A stretch of DNA of 64,000 nt from Nitrososphaerota archaeon (GTDB lineage Archaea > Thermoproteota > Nitrososphaeria > Nitrososphaerales > Nitrosopumilaceae). The notes beneath the pieces were generated by a model. That model worked only from the letters and a program-made list of their open reading frames with translations. It ran no database searches and was not told the origin of the DNA. Location: positions 1 to 64,000 of the forward strand of contig JACRJT010000037.1 of assembly GCA_016215465.1 (NCBI GenBank). The letters run 5' to 3'. Positions within the stretch are counted from its first letter, which is position 1. Every line of letters begins with the position of its first letter. The translations under genes and the position numbers were made by a program. Below, piece after piece: positions 7,649 through 54,524 of the stretch.

Positions 7649-9175
7649 ATGCCCGTAAAGGACATGTTTCTTGGATATGAACACAGAGAATTACTCAATT
7701 CCAGAGTTGGCGACATGTTTGATTTTGAAAACACACTACCAACTGCAGTCCATATATCAGATAATGTGACTGATTGTATCAATGTACTAAAAGATGATGA
7801 GCTTTGTCATGATGGCGCACTTGTAAAAAGCCGTGACAAGCATGTTGGAATAGTCACTGGAAGAGAGCTCACCGCAGGATTGTTGTCTTTAGGTGTGAAA
7901 AAATTTGTGGGACGTTCAATAGGAGATTATTTTAGTTCAAATTTTAACACTCTGACAGAAGATGAGACTCTTTTGGATTTTATTCAAAAGATACAAAGAT
8001 CAAGAAGAGGTTTTGGACTGGTACTGAGAGATAAAAAACTGGTAGGCAAACTCTCAATTAGAGATGTTGTATCACTTTACCTGAAAATGGATTCAAGTGC
8101 AACACTTAGAGATTTTCCAGCACACCAAATGATCTCAGTATCACCTACGACTACCATAAAAGAATCCCTTCTCCTAATGATGAAATCCCATATAAGAAAG
8201 ATTTTCCTCAAAGATAAGTTATGTCCGTTCATATCAGAAAGAAACGTTTTGGGACTTGTGGCAAGTTGTGCATCAAAAAATGACTATATTACCTTAGATA
8301 AGCCCATAACTGAATGTAAGAAAAACTATGCCATTGCGCTAAAGGAAGAAAAAATAAAAGATGCCTGCCAAAAACTATTGCTTTCCAATTCTACATGTAT
8401 TGTATATGATAAAAAATACATTTTTACAGCATGGGATATTGCGACATCCTTTCTTGTTGATAGAATTCATGATTATCAAAAACAACTCCTCTCATCAGAA
8501 AAACTGGCAATGATGGGGGAACTTTCAGCAAAGCTAAACCATGAGCTAAGAAATCCCCTGTCAATAATCAAAAATTCATCCGAACTGCTCAAAGCAAGGG
8601 GTGGAAATAATCTGAATCTAGAACAGATTACCTATATTCAAATGATCGATCGGGCTGTAGCACGAATGGCTCATCAGATAGATGACGTACTTGATTTTGT
8701 AAGAATAACTGATTTGAACATTACTGCGTCATCAATATCTGACTTGGTTGGCGATACACTAGAAAGCATTACTCTTCCCCAAGGTATGTCTCTTGTAACA
8801 AACATTGAAGATCATTGTGTGCAATGCGACAAGGTAAAGATCAAAGTTGTCATTAAGAATCTAATCTTAAATGCAATAGATGCCATGATGGAAAAAAGAG
8901 GTAAACAAAAGGAAATTCACATTAATGCAAAACAGGAGAATGACATCACAGTACTCGAAATCAGTGATACGGGTGTAGGAATTTCTCAAAGGGATCTGGC
9001 AAGAATTTTTGAGCCATTATACACAACAAAACAAACTGGATCAGGACTTGGCCTTGCAATTTCCAAATTTATTGTAGATTTTCATAAAGGCGACATCTCG
9101 GTATCTAGCAAGGCAAATGAAGGAACAACGGTTACCGTTCTATTACCAATGAAGCCTTTTGGTAATGCAAATTAG
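7649..9175 (+). CDS. Soluble histidine kinase with CBS-domain sensor
   Basis: The N-terminal 260 residues resemble tandem CBS motifs, e.g. HVGIVTGRELTAGLL, KLVGKLSIRDVVSLYL and TTTIKESLLLMMKSHIRKIF; CBS pairs bind adenosyl compounds such as AMP, ATP or SAM. The kinase core follows: His298 in ELSAKLNHELRNPLSIIK, an N box (LILNAIDAMMEKRG), G1 (SDTGVGIS) and G2 (TGSGLGLAISKFIVDFHKG). No membrane segment is present. The layout suggests a kinase that reads the cell's energy or cofactor state, which is an inference. A TATA-like ATTAAATAA about 30 nt before the ATG fits a near-leaderless promoter. The receiver at 9373-9738 is convergent and is a candidate partner. Confidence 0.9.
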   Translation: MPVKDMFLGYEHRELLNSRVGDMFDFENTLPTAVHISDNVTDCINVLKDDELCHDGALVKSRDKHVGIVTGRELTAGLLSLGVKKFVGRSIGDYFSSNFNTLTEDETLLDFIQKIQRSRRGFGLVLRDKKLVGKLSIRDVVSLYLKMDSSATLRDFPAHQMISVSPTTTIKESLLLMMKSHIRKIFLKDKLCPFISERNVLGLVASCASKNDYITLDKPITECKKNYAIALKEEKIKDACQKLLLSNSTCIVYDKKYIFTAWDIATSFLVDRIHDYQKQLLSSEKLAMMGELSAKLNHELRNPLSIIKNSSELLKARGGNNLNLEQITYIQMIDRAVARMAHQIDDVLDFVRITDLNITASSISDLVGDTLESITLPQGMSLVTNIEDHCVQCDKVKIKVVIKNLILNAIDAMMEKRGKQKEIHINAKQENDITVLEISDTGVGISQRDLARIFEPLYTTKQTGSGLGLAISKFIVDFHKGDISVSSKANEGTTVTVLLPMKPFGNAN

Positions 9176-9252
9176 ATTCGGTATGAACCAGAGTAATCTG
9201 GATTGTTTTTATTTCTCAGCATTATTGGTGTTATACCTTAAAAATAACTAGT

Positions 9253-9291
9253 GTTAAAAATAGTTAAGCCCCTCTTTTTATGGGAATTAAT
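9253..9291. repeat. Intergenic repeat, copy 2
   Basis: This second copy of the element at 6171-6209 shares TTAAAAATAGTTAAGCCC exactly and keeps a CCC...GGG pairing and TTAAT further on. It lies between the convergent ends of the CBS kinase and the next receiver gene. Confidence 0.4.
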
Positions 9292-9372
9292 CCATATTTT
9301 TTCAGATCTGGTATACGACAAAACTATGACTAGGTGTAATTACATCTGTGGATTTTTCTATAAAATATAATA

Positions 9373-9738
9373 TTAAGAAAGCAGTACTTTTTCTATTAGA
9401 AATACTATTTTCTCAATATCGATTGGCTTACAAACGATTGCAGCTATGGGCAATTCTTTTAGCATGGCTGTAATTTCCACAGTAGGACTTCCAGTTAATA
9501 GTATGATCTTGGCATTTTTGTCTAGGCTAAAAATTTCTTTTGTAGCATAATATCCATCATAATATGGCATTCTAACGTCTAGAAAAAGAATGTCAGGTTT
9601 TTTTTGTTTGTACAATTTAACTGCATCTTTTCCATTGTAAGCAGTACCAACTACGTTTATTCCCCGCATCTCGAGCAATTCTTTGAAAATTTTTACAAAA
9701 TCTGCCTCGTCATCAACTATGACCACTTTGATATTCAT
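9373..9738 (-). CDS. Receiver-only response regulator
   Basis: This 121-aa receiver has Asp9/Asp10 (VIVDDEADF), phospho-acceptor Asp54 (ILFLDVRMP), Thr82 (ILLTGSP) and Lys104 (VCKPIDIEK). No output domain follows. Its start is 2 nt downstream of the stop of the PAS kinase at 9741-10799, so the two form a tight kinase-receiver pair and are very likely cognate. The CKPIDIEKIVFLIEKVL ending resembles the HKPLEIDEVMNLLG ending of the receiver at 11038, suggesting local duplication. Confidence 0.92.
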   Translation of the reverse strand: MNIKVVIVDDEADFVKIFKELLEMRGINVVGTAYNGKDAVKLYKQKKPDILFLDVRMPYYDGYYATKEIFSLDKNAKIILLTGSPTVEITAMLKELPIAAIVCKPIDIEKIVFLIEKVLLS

Positions 9739-9740
9739 TT

Positions 9741-10799
9741 TTAGATCTCCTCATTTTTTGGGAGATGAATTAAGAATGTTGTCCCTACATTCTTTTTTGT
9801 TTTGACATTGATGGTACCACCATGTTTTTCAATAATTGCTTTACAACTAGGCAAGCCTAAACCAGTTCCAATCTGTCGTGTTGTAAATAATGGATCAAAA
9901 ATCTTTGATAGCAGATCACGTGGTATGCCGGGACCATTGTCTTCTACTTCAACAAGTACATGAGTGCCTTTACTTTTAATTCTGAGATTAATTTTACCCT
10001 CATTATTCATCGCTTGAATTGCATTTAAAATCAGATTCAAAAAAACAATTTCTAATTTTTCAGCATCACATTTTATTTTTACATCGTTTTTTGGGATGCT
10101 GATCTTTATTTTACCATAACATTTTACTCGTCTGACCGTGTCCTTTAAGATTTGTAATAATGAATATGTTTTAAGATTTAGTGGTTGCGGTTTAACATAA
10201 TCTAATACCTCTTCAACCTGGTGAGACATTCTTGTTATGGATCTTTGGATCATTGAAAAATATTCAGAGTAACGTGATAATGCCGGATCCTTCGTCAATT
10301 CTAATATCTGAATTGCTCCTTTTATTATGGAGAGTGGATTTCTTAAATCGTGTGCAATTCTTGCAGATAATTCTCCGATGGCTTCTAATCTTTTTGTTTT
10401 TATGCCCTCGATTTCTTTTGTAGTGTAGATTTCACTGATATCTCTCATAACCGTATGGCTTCCAATCAATTTGCCCTTGTCATCATAAATATTGCTGGCA
10501 CTCAAAAGAACTGGAAAAATAGTCCCGTTTTTTCTTTTAAGCCAGATTTCGTGATTTAATACAAATCCAGAAGACCGCCATTTTTGAAAAGTCTGTTTCA
10601 TTTCATTTATGCTTTTTTCTGCTACGTGATCAAAAATTGACGAGCCAATTACTTCATTCATTGAATAGCCAAGTGTTCTTGCATATGCTTTGTTGCATAA
10701 AATTATTTTTCCACTCAGATCAACTGTTCTATATAGATCAAGTGATTCAAAATAATATTTAGCATATACTGCTGAATCCTTTGTTGAGGATTTTTTCAT
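9741..10799 (-). CDS. PAS-domain histidine kinase
   Basis: An N-terminal PAS domain (about residues 20-125: GKIILCNKAYARTLGYSMNE, with HEIWLKRKNGTIFPVLLS and a PAC-like SHTVMRDISE) precedes HisKA with His150 in [18 protein letters not shown] and HATPase_c with LILNAIQAMNNEG, EDNGPGIP and GTGLGLPSCKAIIEKHGG. There is no transmembrane segment, so it senses inside the cell, through redox state or a small ligand if typical of PAS. The receiver at 9373-9738 follows after 2 nt as its likely partner. Confidence 0.93.
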   Translation of the reverse strand: MKKSSTKDSAVYAKYYFESLDLYRTVDLSGKIILCNKAYARTLGYSMNEVIGSSIFDHVAEKSINEMKQTFQKWRSSGFVLNHEIWLKRKNGTIFPVLLSASNIYDDKGKLIGSHTVMRDISEIYTTKEIEGIKTKRLEAIGELSARIAHDLRNPLSIIKGAIQILELTKDPALSRYSEYFSMIQRSITRMSHQVEEVLDYVKPQPLNLKTYSLLQILKDTVRRVKCYGKIKISIPKNDVKIKCDAEKLEIVFLNLILNAIQAMNNEGKINLRIKSKGTHVLVEVEDNGPGIPRDLLSKIFDPLFTTRQIGTGLGLPSCKAIIEKHGGTINVKTKKNVGTTFLIHLPKNEEI

Positions 10800-11037
10800 T
10801 ATACTTACTGTAATTTTTGTTATTCTAAATATGTGCTACTAGAAGAACAACAAAGTTCATTTTTGATACATATTTAGTATTGATTAGCCTATTTCAGAAT
10901 AATATTGAGAGAAATAGTTCTTAAAAAGAATACCCATGAATATTTACAGTAATATCTGATTTTAAAATACATGTTCCTCAATGAGTGTTTGAAAGTAACA
11001 GACAAGAATACAATATGGAAAAACTTGCATCATAGAT

Positions 11038-11415
11038 GTGGCAAAAACCATGTCTGCAATAGTGATTGATGATGATCATGACATGGTGGAAGTGTTATCC
11101 GAACTTTTGAAGATCAAAGGTGTAGATGTTGTCGCAAAAGGTTATGATGGAAATGATGCTGTTACTGCGTACAAGATTTTGAAGCCAGATATTGTGTTTT
11201 TGGATCTTATGATGGATAATTACGATGGGTTCTTCGCGCTTGAAAATATCCGAAGAATTGATCCTAATGCCAAGGTAGTAATTATAACTGCTGATGAAAA
11301 TTATGAAACAAAACAAAAATTGAAAAAGCTAAGCCCTACCAAAGTTTTTCACAAACCACTTGAAATTGACGAAGTAATGAATTTGCTTGGTACTTTTGAA
11401 GATTTTGATTCTTAG
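11038..11415 (+). CDS. Receiver-only response regulator
   Basis: The 125-aa receiver has an acidic cluster Asp11-13 (IVIDDDHDM), phospho-acceptor Asp56 (VFLDLMMDNYDG), Thr84 (VIITADE) and Lys106 (VFHKPLEIDE). The start is GTG at 11038, with an ATG four codons later as an alternative. It precedes the PAS kinase at 11585 on the same strand, with a 169-bp gap. The last aspartates (FEDFDS) form a short acidic tail. There is no output domain. Confidence 0.9.
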   Translation: MAKTMSAIVIDDDHDMVEVLSELLKIKGVDVVAKGYDGNDAVTAYKILKPDIVFLDLMMDNYDGFFALENIRRIDPNAKVVIITADENYETKQKLKKLSPTKVFHKPLEIDEVMNLLGTFEDFDS

Positions 11416-11584
11416 CTCATGTTCGGCATACAAAATTAAATTCAATTCCAGTTTACAGCATAAAACTAATCTAAAAGAGATTTTTGTTGAATTAGATAAT
11501 TATCTCATCTGAAATAGGGCAAAAGAAAGTGTTATCATAATGATCAAACTATTTCTTATAATGAGTTAAAAAACTTGTAAAATA

Positions 11585-12712
11585 ATGCTAAGCGATATCG
11601 TCTCTTGTCAATTTGATTTAAAACGAATAGAACGACTTCTTAAAATACAGCACGCCTTAGATCTCCACTCCATCATAGGAATTACTGATACGAACGGTAT
11701 AATCACCTACGTGAACAAGGAATTTTGTAGAATATCAAAATATGCTGAAGACGAATTAATCGGTCAGGATCATCGTATACTAAAATCGGGATTCCATTCG
11801 GATGAATTCTACACTGGAATGTGGAAAACCATATCGAGTGGTCGCATTTGGAGAGGAAGTGTAAAAAATATGGCCAAAGATGGTTCTTTTTATTGGGTAA
11901 AGACAATCATTGTTCCATTACTTGATGAGTTTGGTAAACCAATAGAATACGTATCAATTCGCACGGATATAACAAAAGAAAAAGAACTACAAGAAAGATT
12001 GGCAGAATCCACTAACAAGCTTGTAAGTGCAGAAAGATTTTCTGCAATTGGAGAATTATCCTCAAGGCTTGCACACGACTTAAGAAATCCTCTTTCCGTA
12101 ATAAAAGCAGAAGTAGACATATTCAAATTCAAAAACAAAAATAGTGATGAAAAAACTTTACAATCGTGTCAAAGGGTGGAAAATGCAGTAGCAAAAATAA
12201 CATATCAGATAAACACCGTCTTGGATTTTGTTAGGACGAAACCTCTTCATCTTGATAAAAACTCTGTTTCTTCTATCATTGAATCGACACTTTCTAATAT
12301 TGTGATACCTGATAGAATAAAAATAATTTCGCCTCAAACTGATACTGTGATTATATGCGACTCACATCAACTTGAAGTGGTATTTGAAAACCTGATAACA
12401 AATTCAATTCAAGCTATGGAAAACGATGGCACCGTTACAATTAGAGTGATTGAAGAAAATAATTCAGTGATTATTCAAATCGAAGATACTGGTGATGGTA
12501 TCCCTGATGAAATCGTTCCAAAAATATTTGAGCCTCTCTTTACTACAAAACACAAGGGCACTGGTCTCGGATTAGCAAGTGTCAAAAATATAATAGAACA
12601 GCATCAGGGTAAAATTTCATTAAAAAATAACCCAACTACATTCACCATCCGTTTGCCGCAACAACTAAAACTACCTTTAGAAGAAAAACTAACCATCGAT
12701 TCTATCCCATAG
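11585..12712 (+). CDS. PAS-domain histidine kinase
   Basis: Residues about 25-130 form a PAS domain of the type found in redox or aerotaxis sensors: [20 protein letters not shown], then [16 protein letters not shown] and [19 protein letters not shown], ending with a PAC motif ([17 protein letters not shown]). HisKA has His164 ([17 protein letters not shown]) and HATPase_c has [21 protein letters not shown] and [18 protein letters not shown]. The protein is soluble. The [11 protein letters not shown] block is typical of PAS domains near methyl-accepting sensors. The likely partner is the receiver at 11038. Confidence 0.93.
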
Positions 12713-13075
12713 TGTTTTTGGACTACTGAAAACCCCTTATGGGAATCAAAATTGAACAAATAGGGCGTTTCTCTGTTCTGATGCGTATTGTATAATTGTT
12801 GTATGGTGATGAATTTCGAGGCTGTTTTTATCTTGATAGCGAGTTGATCCTCCTTTAAGAGACGACCTTATTGAAATAATTAATTAGATTATGTAAACCA
12901 TGGTTAAAACAGTCAGAATCGGCAAAAAAGTTTCTTTCAACTCCTTATTTATCCCGCAAAGATGTCGTGTTTTCTGATTATTTTCACATCAAGATGGCTT
13001 GTAACTTCATCTTGTAGATAATTGTGAAATTAGTGCAAAATCAAACTAAATCTTTGAATAAAAAATATGTGATGT
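12713..13075. other. Intergenic region, 3' to two convergent genes
   Basis: No gene is seen. A CCCC...GGG hairpin (12732-12745) follows the kinase stop. A 24-bp sequence at 12888-12911, including the palindrome AACCATGGTT, recurs upstream of the next kinase at 14140-14163. Confidence 0.5.
12888..12911 (+). repeat. 24-bp direct repeat, copy 1
   Basis: ATTATGTAAACCAT is followed by GG and TTAAAACA. The same sequence with AA in place of GG is found at 14140-14163, in the same orientation. The two copies flank the Met-rich protein gene. They could be regulatory sites or the scar of an insertion. Confidence 0.5.
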
Positions 13076-13927
13076 TTAAGAAAATAATTTCTTTACCTTT
13101 GCAAGTTCGGTTTTGATAGAGTCAATTTTTGCATCTATTTTCTGTGCAGGCTCGTCCTTTTGTATGATGTTTCTAAGATCAGCTCGTAAAAGCAGTTCGA
13201 TTTTTTCCATTTGCTCGAGGTCTTTAGCCGCAATTGCACTTTCAACATATTCGTAATTTTCCAAGTATGCTGTTGTTGCAAGTGAGAGTGCAGTGTTCTT
13301 GTCTCCATCATTATATCTTGACGAGACTTGGTCAAGCAAATCCTCGATGTTATTTATTGTTGAGAGAACTTCGTTATTCTTTGTTATTGGTGTTCCCATC
13401 ATGGAACCCATCATATTTCCACCCATCATTCCCTGATTCATCCAACCGGATCCCATCATGCTTTGCCAGTTAGTATTGTTGCTCATCCAAGGACCCATCC
13501 AGCTTTGTTGGAATTGTGGGTTGTTCATCATTCCGTACATGAACTGTTGGTTTTGCATCATCATGCCCATCATCTGTTGGCTCGTCTGTGGGTTGCTCAT
13601 CATACTATTCATCATGCTTGGGCCCATCATACTCATCATTGTCTGCATGTGTTGAGGATTGTTCATCATTATGTCGTGCATTTGTTGAATTGCTTGTGGG
13701 TTGCTCATCATACTGCTCATCCAGTTGTTCATTACTTGAGGATTATTTATCATGGTTTGATGCCACTGAGTCATAGTTTGCGGATTATTCATCATTTGTT
13801 GCATTTGCTGCGGCGTCATGTGCATAAAGCTGGAAGACTGGTTTGCTGAAAAAACTGCATAGCTAATTCCCAACCCTGCAAAGAAAACACCTATGGCAAC
13901 TCCGATTAATAATGATTGATTTGCCAT
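13076..13927 (-). CDS. Membrane-anchored methionine-rich protein with FTR1-type helical domain
   Basis: From the ATG at 13925-13927 the protein has an N-terminal hydrophobic segment (LLIGVAIGVFFAGLGISYAVF, an anchor or signal peptide), then about 150 residues of imperfect repeats built on MMNNPQ/MMSNPQ with dozens of methionines and many N, Q and W residues, and a C-terminal helical domain (about the last 90 residues). That domain contains AYLENYEYVESAIAAKDLEQ and ELLLRADLRNIIQ, the pattern seen twice in the FTR1 permease at 50714-52936. Methionine clusters outside the membrane typically bind Cu(I). An extracytoplasmic metal-binding role is therefore likely but inferred. An upstream in-frame ATG at 13975 would add 16 residues that do not look like a signal peptide. 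Confidence 0.8.
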   Translation of the reverse strand: MANQSLLIGVAIGVFFAGLGISYAVFSANQSSSFMHMTPQQMQQMMNNPQTMTQWHQTMINNPQVMNNWMSSMMSNPQAIQQMHDIMMNNPQHMQTMMSMMGPSMMNSMMSNPQTSQQMMGMMMQNQQFMYGMMNNPQFQQSWMGPWMSNNTNWQSMMGSGWMNQGMMGGNMMGSMMGTPITKNNEVLSTINNIEDLLDQVSSRYNDGDKNTALSLATTAYLENYEYVESAIAAKDLEQMEKIELLLRADLRNIIQKDEPAQKIDAKIDSIKTELAKVKKLFS

Positions 13928-14350
13928 TGTTAGGTATGCACTCCTAAAGATAATAACATTACAATCGATTTTCATCTCTGATTCTCAATTATGAACATAG
14001 TTTAGGAGGAAATAGTGTAAAATCTGTAACTTCAATTATGCCCATCTGAAAATTGTAGGGGCGGTCAAATTTGAACCGACTCTGTAGGAAGTTGAACCAA
14101 TTAATACCAATTTGAGTCAGGATTGTATTAGTTAACTAAATTATGTAAACCATAATTAAAACAACTTGATTATCGTTTATTCTACTTACAAAATTATCCT
14201 GACTTTTTGTCTGGCATAAATCTCAGACTATATTTGCCATAGTAAAACACTACACCGGTGTTTTGTGAAAATACATATTTATCCATAATTCGTGAAATTT
14301 TCGATGATTATGATATCTATTCCAACTATGAGAATAAGGAAGTCAAACTA
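13928..14350. other. Intergenic region upstream of two divergent genes
   Basis: It holds the promoters of the Met-rich gene (minus) and the DUF3068 kinase (plus), the second copy of the 24-bp repeat (14140-14163), and GGTCAAATTTGAACC at about 14067-14081. Read on the minus strand, that last sequence resembles a tRNA T-arm, but no tRNA body is present. Confidence 0.45.
14140..14163 (+). repeat. 24-bp direct repeat, copy 2
   Basis: This copy matches 12888-12911 at 22 of 24 bases (AA instead of GG at the centre). It lies about 190 bp before the start of the DUF3068 kinase. Confidence 0.5.
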
Positions 14351-15850
14351 ATGTCAAAAAATGTAATCATTAAACATTTTACGATAGTTATCTCAGTAAC
14401 CATCATCATTGTCGCACTCTGGACTTTTATCATTGTGCCTGAGTATGAACAATTACCACCAAATTTTACACTTAACATGGAATATGAGGGAAAAGATCAA
14501 ATTGTAAATAATGTTAATGGAGAATTATCTGAGCCATATGTGCTCAAAGACATTTTGTCTCAAAAAGCTATATCTGTCAATGACAACATTCTAACTATAT
14601 CCTCAACTGTAACTGGCATGAGGGCGGATACTGGAGAGATAGTTTTTCAAGATAATCAAAAATATGATGTAGATCGAATTACTCTGATGCATTCTGACAA
14701 ACCCAATAAACGATTTGGATTTTTGCCCGGAGTGAAAAAACAGGATTATGATTTTCTTCATCCTCTAATTTTTGATAACTCTGTCCTTGTTTTTCAAGGA
14801 ACTGATAAAATAAACGATTTAGAGGTTTACAAATTTTCAGTAAAGTCTTTAGAACATGATGTGTCATCTGCGTTTCCCTCTTTTTCTTCCCACACGATAT
14901 GGGCAGACACTTATGCTACATTGTGGATAGAACCGATTACTGGTGATATGCTTCGTTTTGAAAAAAGTTGGGATAACTATTTAGTTGAAGAAGGACTACA
15001 TAAAAACACAATAGAAAAAGGTTGGAAGCATACTACTGCTTTTACTGAATCAATCTTAACGCAAAACGCTAAGACGAAAATAGTCAACCTGAACTTCTCC
15101 AAAGTTATTATGCCTGTATTTTTAGCATCTATAAGTTTAGGATTGGGATCTGTTCTGATTTTATGGTTTAGATTAACAACCATCAGGAAAAAAAATGACC
15201 AGTTATCACTGCTTGGTAATTTGACCGCAAGAATAGCACATGACCTCAAAAACCCACTAAGTGTCATAAAAAGTGATCTTGCAATGATGTCTTTACAAGA
15301 AAAAGAAAATCCAGATGAAAAAATGGAACAGAGAATCAAACGTCTTCAAAGAACTGTAAATAGAATGGAACATCAAATTGCTGGAGTTATGGATTTTGTG
15401 AGAAAAAAACCATTAACATTCGGGCGTTTTTCATCACGGGAACTAATAGAAACCGCTCTTGAGAGTATTACTATTCCAGAGAACATCAAAATACTTACTC
15501 CAGCACACGACGTTGTAATAATTGGAGATCTTATACAATTAGGGGTAGTTCTGTCCAACATAATTACCAATTCGATACAAGCAATAGGAACATCTGGAGA
15601 AATTTCAATATTGATGGAGGATAATCCGGACTACGTAATTATTAGTATAATAGATTCAGGTCCAGGCATACCTGAGAAGGATTTGCCTAAAATCTTTGAT
15701 TTATTATTTACAACAAAACAAACCGGTACGGGGTTGGGGTTATTCAGTTGTAAAACAATTATTGAAAATCACGGAGGAAGTATTTCGGTCAAAAACAATC
15801 CTGCTACTTTTACTATCCTTCTTCCAAAGAAACAGACTAAAACAAATTGA
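14351..15850 (+). CDS. Membrane histidine kinase with DUF3068-like extracytoplasmic sensor
   Basis: Membrane helix 1 (TIVISVTIIIVALWTFIIV) is followed by about 240 extracytoplasmic residues and helix 2 (VIMPVFLASISLGLGSVLIL), then HisKA with the acceptor His in LTARIAHDLKNPLSVIK and HATPase_c with IITNSIQAIGTSG, IDSGPGIP and GTGLGLFSCKTIIENHGG. The outer part carries the pattern of DUF3068 (actinobacterial PorA-like) proteins: YDVDRITL, GFLPGVKKQDYDF, FQGTDKINDLEVYKFSV and TLWIEPITGDMLRFEK, with a helix on each side as in that family. DUF3068 in a kinase is unusual. The frame is open back to a GTG at 14258; I chose the ATG at 14351 because it places the first helix near the N-terminus and has AAGGA upstream. 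Confidence 0.85.
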   Translation: MSKNVIIKHFTIVISVTIIIVALWTFIIVPEYEQLPPNFTLNMEYEGKDQIVNNVNGELSEPYVLKDILSQKAISVNDNILTISSTVTGMRADTGEIVFQDNQKYDVDRITLMHSDKPNKRFGFLPGVKKQDYDFLHPLIFDNSVLVFQGTDKINDLEVYKFSVKSLEHDVSSAFPSFSSHTIWADTYATLWIEPITGDMLRFEKSWDNYLVEEGLHKNTIEKGWKHTTAFTESILTQNAKTKIVNLNFSKVIMPVFLASISLGLGSVLILWFRLTTIRKKNDQLSLLGNLTARIAHDLKNPLSVIKSDLAMMSLQEKENPDEKMEQRIKRLQRTVNRMEHQIAGVMDFVRKKPLTFGRFSSRELIETALESITIPENIKILTPAHDVVIIGDLIQLGVVLSNIITNSIQAIGTSGEISILMEDNPDYVIISIIDSGPGIPEKDLPKIFDLLFTTKQTGTGLGLFSCKTIIENHGGSISVKNNPATFTILLPKKQTKTN

Positions 15851-48612: not shown

Positions 48613-50733
48613 TTAGTTTGTTTCAACAATTATTGCAGCTTTCTCAGAGTTGTCAAGCTCTTGTTGTACTGCGTTTAGGATGTGTGATACCGACGTCAGG
48701 CTTGAAAAGTCAACTAGTTTTAGGTTGTTCAAAAGATACACCTGTGGTGCAATGTCATTGTTTCTGGATTCCAAAAAGTCGTCTAATTCTTCTAGGATTG
48801 ATATTTTTCCGCCTTGGAATATTTTTGCATTTTTATGAGACAATTTCATTCGGCCAAATCTGTCCAGTACCAAGACATGATGCCTGTTTTTCTTGGAAAA
48901 TAGCTTTTTTTCTGAAACATGCCCTGTGAACACAAAATAATGGTCAGTTTCAAAGCTTAACTCCACAAGTTCCCTGCTAATTTCCATCATTTCGCTTGCC
49001 CTGATCAGTGCCTCATCAAGTGTAAAGATGTTCTTTGCATTTTCCGTACTGTCAAGTTCCACATTTCCTGTTGCGGACACTCGAAGTAGCGCTTTTTCTG
49101 AAATGTATTCGCTGTTTATTAGAATTGATTCTGGCACTGCTCCCCTATCAATCATGATTGCGTGGATTTTTTTGTGCATTTCAGATATTTGCTCAGGTGT
49201 CGGGTTGGATATCGTATGCTCGATTTCTTCTTGAATCATTGATGATGCCACACCAATTGACGATATCACTTCTGCATGTTCTGCTTTTTTGTATGGAACT
49301 CCGAGTTGCTTTGCAACAAAAGGAACTAGTACTGATGCACCCCCACCGCCTCCAATTATCTGGGTTTTTGCTTTTTCCATCTTGAACTCCTTCAGGATTT
49401 TCGAGATTGCCTTTGTTATCTCAAATGACGCTGTCTGGATTACCGACATTGCCGCCTCAGGACCAGTCACCCTGAGCTCGCGCCCAAGTAGTTCCATTGC
49501 GATTTTTGCAGAAGATTGGTTTGCAAAGGAATAATCGTCTTTTTCTATCATGCCAAGTGCATTTGCAGCACACGTATTTGTGATTGCAAATGTTTCATCA
49601 TCACATTTTACTGCAACGTATGATTCGATGTCGTTTTCTTTGGGTTTTATTGTGATGATTTTTCCTTTTTTCAGAATGTCTGGGTCTGCAAAACACGCAT
49701 ACTTCAAACCTGCAATGTGTGCACTTCGTGGACCAACCTTCCAAACTCGCCCATCCTTTATCTTTATCATGCTGCCTCCAGCCACACCTAAAATACGAAC
49801 GTCCATGGAACGGATGCATGTTGGATGATCCTTTATGGTAACATAACGAATCTCTGGCTTGCCATTTTTTATTATACAAATATTGGTGCTGGTTCCGCCA
49901 ACTTCGACAAATATCCCATCTGTTACCTTGAGGTACAGCAAGGCACCTGCAACACTAGCAGCTGGCCCTGAAAGAATGGTCAGAATGGGTTTTGTTCTAA
50001 ATGTATCCATGTTTGTAACTCCGCCATCCCCTTTCATGATCATTAGCGGTGCGTTAACTCCTGCGTTTCTAATCGCTTCTTCTACAAAATTTGCAACCTC
50101 AAATGTTTTTGGAAGAACACTTGCGTTGATTGCTGCAGTCAATGTCCTAATCTCAAGGCCATAAATTCCAGAAATTTCATGGGATGCAGTAGCAGGAATG
50201 TTTCCTTGCATCGCGTTTTTCATTACAAACATTTCATTTGACGGATCATCGACTCCAAACGCTTCTGTTGCAACAATTACCTTGACTCCTTTATCCTTTA
50301 GGGTATTAATTGCCTGATGTACCTCTTTCTCTGAAATTAAATGAGACGTATCAAGAAAGACATGTTCTGTCTTTAAGCTTTGATCAGAGTTAAACGTGGC
50401 ATCCTGAAGCGTGGTTCTTTTTATAACGTCCCCTTTTTCTGGCGTCACACCCATTGCAATTATCCCAACCTTTGCAGTGTCTGATTCAAGCAGCGCGTTA
50501 ATTGCCTGAGTTGTACTATGTGCAATTAATTCTATTTCGGATAATTCGATTTTTGATTCACCAACTAGTTGTGATAGTGCAAGTACGATTCCCTCTGAGA
50601 CACCTTTTTGCGCCTTGTGTGTAGTTGGAGTAGTTGATTTGCCTATAAGCTGCCCAGTTTTGATGTCTATTGCGATTGCCTTTGTGAACGTACCGCCTAC
50701 ATCGATTCCTATTCTAATGCGCCGTGGACTCAT
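48613..50733 (-). CDS. Hydantoinase A / oxoprolinase family protein
   Basis: The N-terminus has the ASKHA-type phosphate loop IRIGIDVGGTFTKAIAIDIK; further on come STTQAINALLE, KPILTILSGPAASVAGALLY and the second nucleotide motif VEVGGTSTNICIIKNG. The family (HyuA subunit or the N-methylhydantoinase A / oxoprolinase group) cleaves ring amides using ATP. No HyuB partner is next to it, and archaeal family members may act alone or on other substrates. It overlaps the FTR1 permease gene by 20 nt. ATG at 50731-50733 is used. Confidence 0.85.
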   Translation of the reverse strand: MSPRRIRIGIDVGGTFTKAIAIDIKTGQLIGKSTTPTTHKAQKGVSEGIVLALSQLVGESKIELSEIELIAHSTTQAINALLESDTAKVGIIAMGVTPEKGDVIKRTTLQDATFNSDQSLKTEHVFLDTSHLISEKEVHQAINTLKDKGVKVIVATEAFGVDDPSNEMFVMKNAMQGNIPATASHEISGIYGLEIRTLTAAINASVLPKTFEVANFVEEAIRNAGVNAPLMIMKGDGGVTNMDTFRTKPILTILSGPAASVAGALLYLKVTDGIFVEVGGTSTNICIIKNGKPEIRYVTIKDHPTCIRSMDVRILGVAGGSMIKIKDGRVWKVGPRSAHIAGLKYACFADPDILKKGKIITIKPKENDIESYVAVKCDDETFAITNTCAANALGMIEKDDYSFANQSSAKIAMELLGRELRVTGPEAAMSVIQTASFEITKAISKILKEFKMEKAKTQIIGGGGGASVLVPFVAKQLGVPYKKAEHAEVISSIGVASSMIQEEIEHTISNPTPEQISEMHKKIHAIMIDRGAVPESILINSEYISEKALLRVSATGNVELDSTENAKNIFTLDEALIRASEMMEISRELVELSFETDHYFVFTGHVSEKKLFSKKNRHHVLVLDRFGRMKLSHKNAKIFQGGKISILEELDDFLESRNNDIAPQVYLLNNLKLVDFSSLTSVSHILNAVQQELDNSEKAAIIVETN

Positions 50734-52936
50734 CAATTTCCCTTCTTGATTTGCGCATTGTGGCTATTTTCTCTTCCCTTTTTGGCTTCAAAACAAGTAC
50801 GTATGATGCCGCTGCCAGATATATTCCAAGCATGATTATTTGTGCAATTATTGTCTCAAGTGTCGGATAAATTCCAGTCATCTTTGCCATGTTGATATCA
50901 AGTCTTGGAACAATTCCCAGAAGACTGGTAAATGGCAAAATGTCAAGTGTTTGTAATTCTCTTACGGCATTACCCAAAAATGCAATTGAGAGATACGCGC
51001 CTACCCCCATCGTAAGGCCGAAAAGCATCTTGAGCGGTAGCCTTTTTCCTATTTTTCTCGTTACAAAGTATACTCCAAGCAGGGTTGCAATTCCTGCGAT
51101 GAATCCCAACCCGACATAGGTTTCCATGTATTTTGCAAATCCGAACATTGCCTCGTAAAACAACACCGTCTCAAATCCTTCTCTGTACACTGTGAAAAAT
51201 GAAAGCATTACAAACACCACTGTGCCTCCTGTGGTTGATGCCTGCCAGACTTTAGCCTTGACAAACTCCATCCATTTTTTGTGCTCTATTTTATTTAGGA
51301 TCCAAAAACTCACATAAAACAATACAGCGGTTGCAGAAAGCGCCGCAATTGCCTCAATTAGCTCCCTATTTGCGCCAGATATTTTGATGAGATATGATGC
51401 GATAAACCACGTTACGGCGGTTGCAACAATTGCCAAGATTATTCCGTAGTGCACAAATCGCTTAAATTTTGTATTCCTGGATGCCTCAAGGTAAGTAAGA
51501 ATGGCACCTAGGATTAGAACTGATTCTAGCCCCTCTCGGAAAATAACTGCGAACGATGATGTAAACGCAATTGTGGGTGCAATCTGGCCAGTTCCAGTGA
51601 CTAGTCTTTCAGATTCATCAAGGCTTCGCTTTACTGCAATTGTAGCTTGCTCTATTTTATCATAATCCGCTTTCTGGTTTATCAAACTTCTAAGCTCGGC
51701 AAACTGAAGCTCAACTTGCAATGTAAAGTCAGGATCAATTGTTCGTAATGGAATTTCCACGTGTTCGTAGCTGTCCAAATATGCTGTTCTTGCAGAAACA
51801 AATGCTGCTTGGGTATTGCCCTCTTTGTACTGATTTAGCATTGTCTGTAGGGTTATTCGAATAAAATCAATCTGGCTTCGTACGCCCGACTTTTGTTCTT
51901 CTGTAGCTGAACCCATTTCTTTTGCTGCTTTTTTGAGTTCAACTCTGGATGCTGGTTGACTGTCAGGCGATGATTTTGAAATCATCTTTTCCGTGTTATC
52001 CAAGTCTGCAAGTATTGGATCATTGATGAATGACTGTATTTCATCGTATGATTTTTTTTCTTGTATCATTGCTCGTAAATTTTCTCTCATGTTTAATTCC
52101 ATTTTGTGCAAGAGAGTTTCGTCTACCTTGCCAATGTCTGCTTCGAGATACTCAAAGTTGTCAAGATATGCAGCAATGACATGTTCTTCTGCTTTTGCAT
52201 AATTATTGTCTTTGATTTCAGACAATGTTTGATCATAATGTTGCCTTATCATGGCATACAAACTGGCATGATCTGATGATGCAGAGTCAGTTCCCGTAAG
52301 GTCGCGCTGTATTGTGGTGATCAGTTTTCCAACGGAGACAAAATCCTGCTTTTGAGCAATCTTCGATTTTAACTCATCAAAGAATGAGTTGATCTCACCA
52401 GTTTGCCTTTCGTCAAACGAGGAATCAGAGCTAAACAGTTGAACTGCCTTATCAACAAGAGACGTAGCTATGGAATGGCGTTCATTGTCGTTTTCTGAAA
52501 TCGCAATTTGATAATTTTCATCTACCGTCATCAGTAAATCGGATACGACAAATGGAATATGCTGTGACTTTGGAAATTTGGCCACTTGTTGTTCCGCTAC
52601 TGTGATATCTGCCAATATTTCACTGGAATGAGCCCTGTTTTCTATTTTGGAGTGTATGTCAAGAAGCACCAAGTGCAAATCATTGGCCGGCTCCACATTT
52701 GCTTCTCTAAGTAAGTCCATTTGGTGACCGTAAAAATCAGTAGTGAATTTAGAATACTTTGTAGCTTGCTCGTAATCATTACTCAATATGCTTGTTTTTG
52801 TTAGGTTAATTCCAATCTGCACTATTTCGCTGGTTGACTGGGCAGTATGATCATTTACGGTTTGTGCAAAAGATACCTGGTTGACTGACAAAATAACAAA
52901 CAATGCAGATAAAAGCACAATTTGTCGATGGTTCAA
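50714..52936 (-). CDS. FTR1 family iron permease with helical extracytoplasmic domain
   Basis: A signal peptide (residues 1-24, ending QVSFA) is followed by about 420 extracytoplasmic residues that include two copies of a helical repeat with AYLDNFEYLEADIGKVDETL and AYLDSYEHVEIPLRTIDPDF. The C-terminal membrane part (about seven helices) carries the iron-exchange motifs: FAVIFREGLESVLILGAILT near residue 460 and FFTVYREGFETVLFYEAMFG near residue 590 (R-E-x-x-E). FTR1/EfeU-type permeases import iron. The promoter has a TATA-like GCTTTAAATAC and a DtxR-type inverted repeat (52943-52958) between it and the ATG, suggesting repression by iron. At 740 aa it is much longer than EfeU because of the outer domain. 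Confidence 0.9.
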   Translation of the reverse strand: MNHRQIVLLSALFVILSVNQVSFAQTVNDHTAQSTSEIVQIGINLTKTSILSNDYEQATKYSKFTTDFYGHQMDLLREANVEPANDLHLVLLDIHSKIENRAHSSEILADITVAEQQVAKFPKSQHIPFVVSDLLMTVDENYQIAISENDNERHSIATSLVDKAVQLFSSDSSFDERQTGEINSFFDELKSKIAQKQDFVSVGKLITTIQRDLTGTDSASSDHASLYAMIRQHYDQTLSEIKDNNYAKAEEHVIAAYLDNFEYLEADIGKVDETLLHKMELNMRENLRAMIQEKKSYDEIQSFINDPILADLDNTEKMISKSSPDSQPASRVELKKAAKEMGSATEEQKSGVRSQIDFIRITLQTMLNQYKEGNTQAAFVSARTAYLDSYEHVEIPLRTIDPDFTLQVELQFAELRSLINQKADYDKIEQATIAVKRSLDESERLVTGTGQIAPTIAFTSSFAVIFREGLESVLILGAILTYLEASRNTKFKRFVHYGIILAIVATAVTWFIASYLIKISGANRELIEAIAALSATAVLFYVSFWILNKIEHKKWMEFVKAKVWQASTTGGTVVFVMLSFFTVYREGFETVLFYEAMFGFAKYMETYVGLGFIAGIATLLGVYFVTRKIGKRLPLKMLFGLTMGVGAYLSIAFLGNAVRELQTLDILPFTSLLGIVPRLDINMAKMTGIYPTLETIIAQIIMLGIYLAAASYVLVLKPKREEKIATMRKSRREIDESTAH

Positions 52937-53010: not shown

Positions 53011-53337
53011 CTAATTCGACTGTAAATTCAACGTTGGGTTTGTTCCACCCACTATGATTTCCGCTTTTTTAATTCTACTTTTGTAATACTTGATTTTTTT
53101 CCCGGCGTTTGAGATTTCGAATTTATCTACGTAAACAAGTGTTAGTACCTCAAGGTTTGACAAAATTTTGTAGACTGTGGAGATTGACATTTTTTGCTCA
53201 TCTGCGATTTTTTGTGCATCTTTTGCTTTTGCCGTAATTGAAAATAGCACAGATCTGGAGTAAACGTTTGTCAAAGTTTCTATGATTTGCTGCGTTATGT
53301 CATATTGGCTGAGCTGAAAAACAGTATTTTTCTTCAT
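53011..53337 (-). CDS. Winged-helix regulator, tandem copy 1
   Basis: The 108-aa protein is a single winged helix: YDITQQIIETLTNVYSRSVL, then AQKIADEQKMSISTVYKILS (helix-turn-helix) and a beta wing with VYVDKFEISNAGKKIKYYKS. The adjacent gene at 53354 is a clear paralogue (shared YDVTQ/YDITQ, STVYKILSNLE and YKSRIKKAEI blocks). They probably arose by duplication and may form heterodimers. Position between FTR1 and cbtAB suggests control of metal uptake. Confidence 0.8.
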   Translation of the reverse strand: MKKNTVFQLSQYDITQQIIETLTNVYSRSVLFSITAKAKDAQKIADEQKMSISTVYKILSNLEVLTLVYVDKFEISNAGKKIKYYKSRIKKAEIIVGGTNPTLNLQSN

Positions 53338-53353
53338 AATTCATACCCCTCAA

Positions 53354-53683
53354 TTAATTTGGTGCCAAAACAAGAGTCGGCTCCGGCTTTTTGATACTGA
53401 TGTCTGCCTTGCTTATTCTGCTTCGATAGACTTTGAATTTTCTACCCTTATCAGATATCATCCAGCGTTCTACGCGAATTAATGTCAAATTCTCAAGATC
53501 TGAGAGTTTTTTGTAAACTGAGCTTAGTGGAATCTTGTATTTGTCTGAAACTTCTGCTGCAGTACGGCCTTGTTTGATTAATGAAAACAAAATAGTCCTA
53601 GATTCGGCGTCTGCCAACGCCTCAATTACTTTTTGTGTTACATCATATTTCTTTAATTGTGGAAGCGTAAATCTGCGACCCAA
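53354..53683 (-). CDS. Winged-helix regulator, tandem copy 2
   Basis: A 109-aa paralogue of the next gene: LPQLKKYDVTQKVIEALADA, AAEVSDKYKIPLSSVYKKLS and RVERWMISDKGRKFKVYRSR. Both end with a short hydrophobic and proline tail (PEPTLVLAPN here, NPTLNLQSN there). No cysteine or histidine set for metal sensing is visible. The two genes lie 16 nt apart. Confidence 0.8.
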   Translation of the reverse strand: MGRRFTLPQLKKYDVTQKVIEALADAESRTILFSLIKQGRTAAEVSDKYKIPLSSVYKKLSDLENLTLIRVERWMISDKGRKFKVYRSRISKADISIKKPEPTLVLAPN

Positions 53684-53795: not shown

Positions 53796-54524
53796 CTACT
53801 GGAATCTTGCCTGTTTTACTCTGTCTGGTTGTAGTTTTTGCCACAACACACCGAAAATCAATCCAACCGATAACCAAAATGCTGAGACCCCAACCAAAGA
53901 CACCGCCCTAAATCCATTTACTAGGTCCGCCGGAGCAGTTATCGCATCTGGGTTTTGAGGCATTACTACAAACACTGTAGCAATAAACCCCGCATATCCT
54001 AAAACTGCAACGAATCTCTTGCTTTTGAGTCGCCTGAAAACCTGATAAAACCCGAGTGCACCAAATCCTGAAATCGCGATAAACGAAACGTACAACATCT
54101 GTCTTAGAAGGATTGTTTCTGGATCTCCTACTGTCGGGGGGTTTGCAGGATATTTTGCAAATGGTATTAGATACAATGTAATCCACATGATTGCTGCAAG
54201 GGCTAGTGCTTTTTTGGCAAAACTGTTTCCAGGAAGAATGTTTTTTGCATATCCAAAAACGATTCCAAACAATGCCCCAATCGCAGTGCCAAGTATTGCC
54301 CCTGCCAACAATTGTCCACCCTTTTGCCATGCTCGGTATGAATAATATTCTGCCCAAAACTGTGACGTATCTTTTGCTTCGCCAGATGCAAACATGTGCT
54401 GATTTTCAATTCCAATTGCCTTATCCAAATATGGTTCAACAAGTGCCAAATTTACCAGACCGTGGATGACTCCAGCTGAGCACCCAGACAACAAAATAAT
54501 TGTAATAAAAAGAGACATCCTCAT
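53796..54524 (-). CDS. cbtA: Cobalt transporter subunit CbtA
   Basis: CbtA is a membrane protein with about six helices found next to CbtB in B12-related loci. Here GCSAGVIHGLVNLALVEPYL opens helix 1 and its loop. GQLLAGAILGTAIGALFGIV and FGYAKNILPGNSF follow, and IAISGFGALGFYQVFRRLKS comes later. Length (242 aa) is typical. It follows cbtB by 9 nt, and the two are presumably one transcript. Cobalt fits the need for cobalamin, and the cobalamin adenosyltransferase at 27653 is in the same window. Confidence 0.88.
   Translation of the reverse strand: MRMSLFITIILLSGCSAGVIHGLVNLALVEPYLDKAIGIENQHMFASGEAKDTSQFWAEYYSYRAWQKGGQLLAGAILGTAIGALFGIVFGYAKNILPGNSFAKKALALAAIMWITLYLIPFAKYPANPPTVGDPETILLRQMLYVSFIAISGFGALGFYQVFRRLKSKRFVAVLGYAGFIATVFVVMPQNPDAITAPADLVNGFRAVSLVGVSAFWLSVGLIFGVLWQKLQPDRVKQARFQ

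Follow-up and report, generated by a model that had tools for sequence, protein, structure and literature searches.

The protein encoded at 13076..13927 (−) of the window, by which we mean the whole 64,000-nucleotide stretch analysed, ends in a four-helix domain homologous to the ectodomain repeats of an FTR1 family iron permease encoded at 50714..52936 (−) of the same stretch, and sequence comparison indicates that a copper-associated module has here been joined to the outer domain of FTR1. We propose that the protein is an anchored extracellular metal handler, with Cu(I) on its methionine-rich part, that serves FTR1 iron uptake, a reading whose chances we judge to be evenly balanced.

Anatomy of the methionine-rich anchored protein

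The genome from which the window comes spans 1.70 Mb in 53 contigs, is 96% complete and probably belongs to a relative of the ammonia-oxidising archaea in Nitrosotenuis or close to it. The open reading frame covers 13076-13975 (−), and we took the gene to begin at the in-frame ATG at 13927, where most orthologues start, which gives a protein of 283 aa. Its N-terminal membrane anchor (about residues 6-26; 13850..13912, −) is a hydrophobic stretch common to orthologues and short paralogues. Composition and period define the methionine-rich repeat region that follows (residues 31-182; 13382..13837, −), whose 152 residues include 42 methionines, 15 MM and 10 MxxM motifs, four histidines and no cysteine. 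It is built of ~14-residue MMNNPQ-type units, with a 1.71x excess of methionine spacings at 14 residues, and AlphaFold2 models it as a low-confidence run of short predicted helices. The ~100 residues of non-repetitive sequence after the repeats hold the C-terminal domain, here called domain B (residues 184-282; 13082..13378, −), which AlphaFold2 predicts confidently as a four-helix bundle (pLDDT about 90-98). The original prediction of an anchor, ~150 residues of methionine repeats and a C-terminal domain had coordinates and frame right. Compared with the Nitrosotenuis chungbukensis orthologue, the whole gene has a dN/dS of ~0.14 (for domain B alone, synonymous sites are saturated), and it evolves under purifying selection.

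The C-terminal domain is shared with FTR1

The FTR1 of the window, a 740-aa permease with a long N-terminal ectodomain, scores 65.5 bits on PF03239 against a cut-off of 25.3, while its TIGR00145 match falls below the cut-off of that model. The permease part (50777..51574, −) has two RE-G-x-E motifs (REGLESVLI and REGFETVLF), of which REGLE and REGFE are invariant across nine relatives. An earlier reading of the letters had claimed that the C-terminus of the 13076-13927 protein recurs twice in this permease, and the similarity is statistically secure. BLASTP aligns that C-terminus with FTR1 residues 235-320 (E = 2e-8) and 352-447 (E = 7e-8), and profile-profile alignment of the domain with the two FTR1 segments, using independently built alignments in hhalign, gives probabilities of 99.4 (E 1.7e-21) and 98.8 (E 7.8e-17). 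Both copies, AYLDNFEYLEADI (residues 229-314; 51995..52252, −) and AYLDSYEHVEIPL (residues 358-441; 51614..51865, −), are recovered by BLASTP, iterated HMM and hhalign alike, and the iterated HMM adds a weaker, diverged third copy at residues 130-214 (52295..52549, −; 53.5 bits).

Short helical domains are known to yield spurious matches, such as the designed helical proteins returned by our PDB search, and the resemblance could in principle be due to chance or to low complexity in helical segments; we regard this as virtually excluded. Smith-Waterman scores of domain B against the two FTR1 copies are 110 and 107, compared with a maximum of 68 over 2000 shuffles, and the next-best ORF of the window reaches 50, so that FTR1 is the sole other ORF above background. 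The shuffle and window controls, the profile-profile probabilities and the specificity of domain B, across whole genomes, to those that bear FTR1 all contradict a chance origin.

The C-terminus carries a conserved Y-(L)-x-x-(Y/F)-E-x-x-E ... E core. Tyr37, Glu42, Glu45 and Glu60 of the domain-B alignment (Tyr221, Glu226, Glu229 and Glu244 of the 13076-13927 protein) are invariant over 20 diverse archaeal copies, most of these positions are retained in bacterial copies, and together they could form a metal-binding site or a network with a structural role. We found no entry for domain B in Pfam or NCBIfam, and none of the libraries or papers searched was found to describe it as a family. A PDB search for solved structures related to domain B or FetM gave just designed or unrelated helical proteins, and Foldseek of the methionine-rich protein model returned generic four-helix bundles, topped by PsbQ (E 0.11). 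The tree of domain-B copies, built on 101 columns, is mostly unresolved.

Domain B follows FTR1 across genomes

Most archaeal FTR1 ectodomains hold two clear copies of domain B, and that of genome G043 holds three. Two copies in the G043 FTR1 (L049, 4649-7462) are near-identical and in tandem, a recent duplication. Beyond the permease, domain B occurs in secreted proteins of 370-580 aa that are encoded within or close to the FTR1 operon and in many cases have a PEFG-CTERM-like end (that of the window genome is on contig C35, locus L038), and as stand-alone secreted proteins of ~150 aa. Bacterial copies were found in the E. coli plasmid protein FetM (three copies), in a cytochrome c/FTR1 permease and in Deinococcus taeanensis, whose FTR1 holds a single copy and has the gene for a separate three-repeat protein directly upstream. 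Because an HMM of archaeal methionine-rich proteins only matches FetM (E ~1e-12) and the Deinococcus proteins (3e-15; Z = 20000), domain B is an old domain of FTR1 systems and no archaeal peculiarity. It is uncatalogued, and it marks such systems in bacteria as well as in archaea. BMAH01000059.1 (L150), labelled Gammaproteobacteria bacterium BBSC-SA02, also encodes a close look-alike of the archaeal PEFG/domain-B proteins, which is likely to be archaeal contamination of that assembly.

Among 250 genomes of class Nitrososphaeria, FTR1 is present in 92, domain B in 80 and both in 75. Five genomes have domain B with no detected FTR1 (G015, G037, G053, G228 and G261), and the 17 FTR1 genomes lacking domain B consist of 15 whose FTR1s are short (about 270-315 aa), one whose 351-aa match is weak and one whose hit is sub-threshold. 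In the best-sampled genus (g12, 53 genomes with readable status counted), domain B is in 16/16 FTR1-positive and 0/37 FTR1-negative genomes (Fisher p 7e-14, ignoring phylogeny). Since FTR1 itself contains domain B, extra copies are the count that matters: 73 of the 75 genomes with both exceed the two domain-B matches that FTR1 usually contributes, although in a few genomes, where FTR1 has three copies or is encoded twice, FTR1 alone can supply the excess. Fusions of the methionine-rich module to domain B are accompanied by FTR1 in 10 of the 10 such genomes in the sample, although these fusions are concentrated in one genus and, phylogeny being shared, the genomes are not independent data points in the co-occurrence counts. 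Domain B tracks the gain and loss of FTR1. The co-occurrence with FTR1 that had been predicted for the protein is borne out for domain B and for the fusion; it does not extend to the methionine-rich part, because that module is independent of FTR1 and is found in many FTR1-negative genomes.

The FTR1 locus and its secreted PEFG proteins

The start of a gene for a hydantoinase/acetophenone-carboxylase-like protein (48613..50736, −) overlaps the end of FTR1 in the window, and this conserved neighbour is present in 18 of the 19 FTR1-linked loci or stretches examined. It overlaps or abuts FTR1 at nearly all archaeal loci examined (L040-L045, L074-L093) and lies beside FTR1 again on a Deinococcus plasmid (L215). 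Two small winged-helix regulator-like ORFs stand upstream of FTR1 (53011..53683, −), and the gene for CbtA, a putative cobalt transporter subunit (PF09490), lies close to FTR1 both here (53796-54524) and at seven other FTR1 loci. No oxidase of any kind was seen in the FTR1 operons examined, and the methionine-rich gene of the window sits 37 kb from FTR1, outside its operon.

EfeO, Algp7 and EfeM are periplasmic partners of EfeU/FTR1. The secreted PEFG protein beside archaeal FTR1 is modelled by AlphaFold2 as three four-helix repeats, the last of which is domain B, against the two all-helical bundles of the EfeO/EfeM fold. Foldseek of this model lists EfeO, Algp7 and EfeM among hits with non-significant E values of about 0.5-0.9 (about 0.5-0.8 for EfeO and EfeM). 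Across the 250 genomes, M75 (PF09375) matches are confined to two of the PEFG proteins. Taken as whole proteins, that of G110 and a close relative in G093 (at L075 and L085) pass the Pfam cut-off of 23.5 with 37.3 and 26.4; 14 other aligned PEFG proteins, including that at L038, gave no PF09375 match. Neither did the C-terminus of the 13076-13927 protein match PF09375, and we rejected a firm homology between domain B and M75, the weak profile-profile comparison (probability 10-13) being no more than suggestive. A distant relationship of the PEFG proteins themselves to EfeO/EfeM is likely but unproven, left so because most members lack an M75 match and the profile-profile score is weak. The PEFG proteins beside FTR1 (L038, 5940-7046; L075, 5086-6822; L085, 4011-5762) resemble divergent EfeO/EfeM. 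In the first repeat of the PEFG protein, His43, His62, His65 and Glu69 are invariant, which suggests a metal site. In EfeUOB/M systems an FTR1-type permease, EfeU, goes with the M75 proteins EfeO/EfeM. The probable likeness to them would lie in the four-helix repeats, the weak fold matches and the two M75 matches of the secreted PEFG proteins, whereas the methionine-rich protein has just the domain-B unit.

The methionine-rich module and its neighbours point to copper

The anchor and methionine-rich repeats form a separate family in Nitrososphaeria, with members also in FTR1-negative genomes. Among 65 distinct members, sampled by score and long reading frames rather than at random, the C-terminus is a cupredoxin in 18, domain B in 11, short in 26 and something else in 10. 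The cupredoxin C-termini score above the Pfam cut-offs (PF00127, PF13473). One methionine-rich anchor carries interchangeable C-termini, cupredoxin or FTR1-type, and these partners would place the methionine-rich segment on the extracellular side. At least two cupredoxin types are fused to such anchors, one of them NosZ CuA-like (L078, L079, L081, L082, L095-L100 and others). Other anchors, of ~358 aa, end in a long C-terminus of another type (L112, 1209-2282; L114, 4453-5523); the L112 protein matches DUF7482 and the L114 protein resembles it.

Known methionine-rich copper proteins include CopC/PcoC, with their methionine-rich loops, and the ectodomains of CTR1. Like these, the 13076-13927 protein is dense in methionine, with MxxM and MM motifs, few histidines and no cysteine, and is probably extracellular; unlike them, it has a single anchor, NPQ-capped helical repeats of ~14 residues and exchangeable ends, and it matches no Pfam copper family. 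In the open literature searched, we found no paper on this family.

Within two genes of the sampled methionine-rich genes we counted VIT1 (9), CDF (6) and P-type ATPases (6), and two adjacent P-type ATPases tested score 583.6 and 545.1 bits on the copper-translocating model TIGR01511 (cut-off 397). Copper is the likeliest metal of the methionine-rich region because of these neighbours and of the module's other end-domains. The original prediction of a metal-binding partner, for Cu(I) or Fe, is partly supported: of the two metals, copper gains independent backing, at the level of sequence, from the cupredoxin fusions, the adjoining copper ATPases and the pairing of FetM with FetP. YHS-domain copper-type P-type ATPases adjoin methionine-rich genes at L065, L070, L082, L105 and L110, although marine AOA genomes are stated to encode no Cu efflux proteins (PMC9723733). 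A VIT1 gene beside a methionine-rich paralogue of the window's own genome (L069, 7520-8161) starts within the usual N-terminus, which may reflect a wrongly called start, a frameshift or a truncation. A membrane protein of 192 aa that bears an EGGEQ motif (L054, 9203-9778; L055, 8797-9372) is the neighbour of two methionine-rich orthologues and has no Pfam or NCBIfam match; it was rejected as an FTR1 homologue, just 21 residues being aligned at a probability of 0.7.

The genes that fuse the module to domain B lie at several different loci. They adjoin VIT1, CDF or P-ATPase genes and not FTR1. This arrangement speaks against a partnership with FTR1, as does the occurrence of the module without domain B and in FTR1-negative genomes, and it makes copper tolerance the main rival. 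In favour of a partnership, the fusion of G111 is ~9 kb away from the FTR1 operon. In general copper or transition-metal tolerance, the anchor might scavenge excess Cu(I) at the surface and pass it to, or act together with, efflux or storage transporters (Cu-ATPase, CDF, VIT1). Domain B would then be an ordinary bundle for metal binding or oligomerisation, taken over from the FTR1 system and given no part in iron import. The family's neighbours, which are Cu-translocating P-type ATPases, CDF, ArsR regulators and VIT1, fit such a role, and short paralogues without domain B share these neighbourhoods (L066-L070). However, pure tolerance predicts nothing of the near-perfect association of domain B outside FTR1 with FTR1 presence, nor FTR1 in all fusion genomes tested, and on balance we find this explanation doubtful.

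Improbable, in our view, is a protein working on the iron side, in which the domain-B glutamates bind Fe(III)/Fe(II), the whole is an extra extracellular subunit for FTR1 or VIT1, and the methionine-rich stretch acts as a flexible spacer that tolerates oxidation, or else as a weak site for soft metals. The invariance of Glu42, Glu45 and Glu60, largely retained in bacterial FTR1 copies, would suit it, and VIT1, of an iron/manganese transporter family, adjoins 4 of the 11 fusions; yet VIT1 also stands beside methionine-rich paralogues without domain B, methionine content is conserved, and the fusion of the module to cupredoxins elsewhere points to copper. We give still less credence, and very little, to a surface sensor accessory that presents bound metal for signalling to the histidine kinase with a PorA-like outer domain encoded divergently at 14258..15850 (+). 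That kinase has an outer domain and belongs to a two-component cluster around the methionine-rich gene, and a kinase or response regulator is found near a few relatives, but the pairing is absent from most orthologues, and we rejected the kinase as a conserved partner. The cluster itself comprises four histidine kinases and two response regulators within 7649-15850 of the window.

A candidate copper partner for FTR1 in ammonia-oxidising archaea

The proposal that the protein handles Cu(I) for FTR1 iron uptake draws on several known systems. FetM, with its three copies of the same four-helix ectodomain domain, is paired with periplasmic FetP (PF10634), and P19 has a copper site close to an acidic metal site (PMC9174327). 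By contrast with FetM/FetP and P19-cFtr1, the archaeal protein is a methionine-rich anchor fused to the ectodomain unit and encoded outside the FTR1 operon, and it has no match to PF10634 (P19/FetP). The open literature searched yielded no paper covering FetM, FetP and FTR1 together. With Fet3p-Ftr1p of yeast the archaeal system has in common an FTR1-type permease, and a copper protein as its extracellular partner is a proposed analogy; Cu-oxidase domains, as in a Fet3-type multicopper oxidase, have no match in the 13076-13927 protein. FTR1-type importers elsewhere operate alongside extracellular copper proteins, namely Fet3p, P19 and EfeO with its cupredoxin part, and in each of these an acidic site for iron has a copper site close by (PMC9174327). 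In marine AOA FTR1 is reported without fet3p (PMC9723733).

The domain-B end of the protein makes the FTR1 system its likeliest destination, and from the existence of copper-partnered FTR1 elsewhere, together with AOA FTR1 lacking fet3p, we infer that the protein may bring Cu(I) to that system. The methionine-rich repeats would bind Cu(I) reversibly at the cell surface, and domain B would serve the FTR1 system either by docking on the FTR1/PEFG repeats or by holding iron in a carboxylate-rich way. Copper would thereby be placed next to FTR1, as a redox partner or as a buffer that keeps copper out of the iron route; both the contact with FTR1 and this redox or buffering role are suggested by analogy with Fet3p, P19/FetP and EfeO. 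A broader claim, which we consider somewhat unlikely, is that AOA have a copper-linked FTR1 importer made up of FTR1, an EfeO-like secreted protein and a methionine-rich Cu(I) anchor that replaces the multicopper oxidase or P19. The parts are of known kinds, FTR1 systems and methionine-rich copper proteins, and we found no account of their combination in the literature and libraries searched.

Ammonia-oxidising archaea have a strong dependence on copper, and little is understood of how they take up iron. Nitrosopumilus maritimus has no known iron-specific transporter (PMC6776035). The 13076-13927 protein is a concrete candidate for a copper-iron link in these organisms, and if the copper-linked importer is real, surface copper status would set or power their iron uptake.
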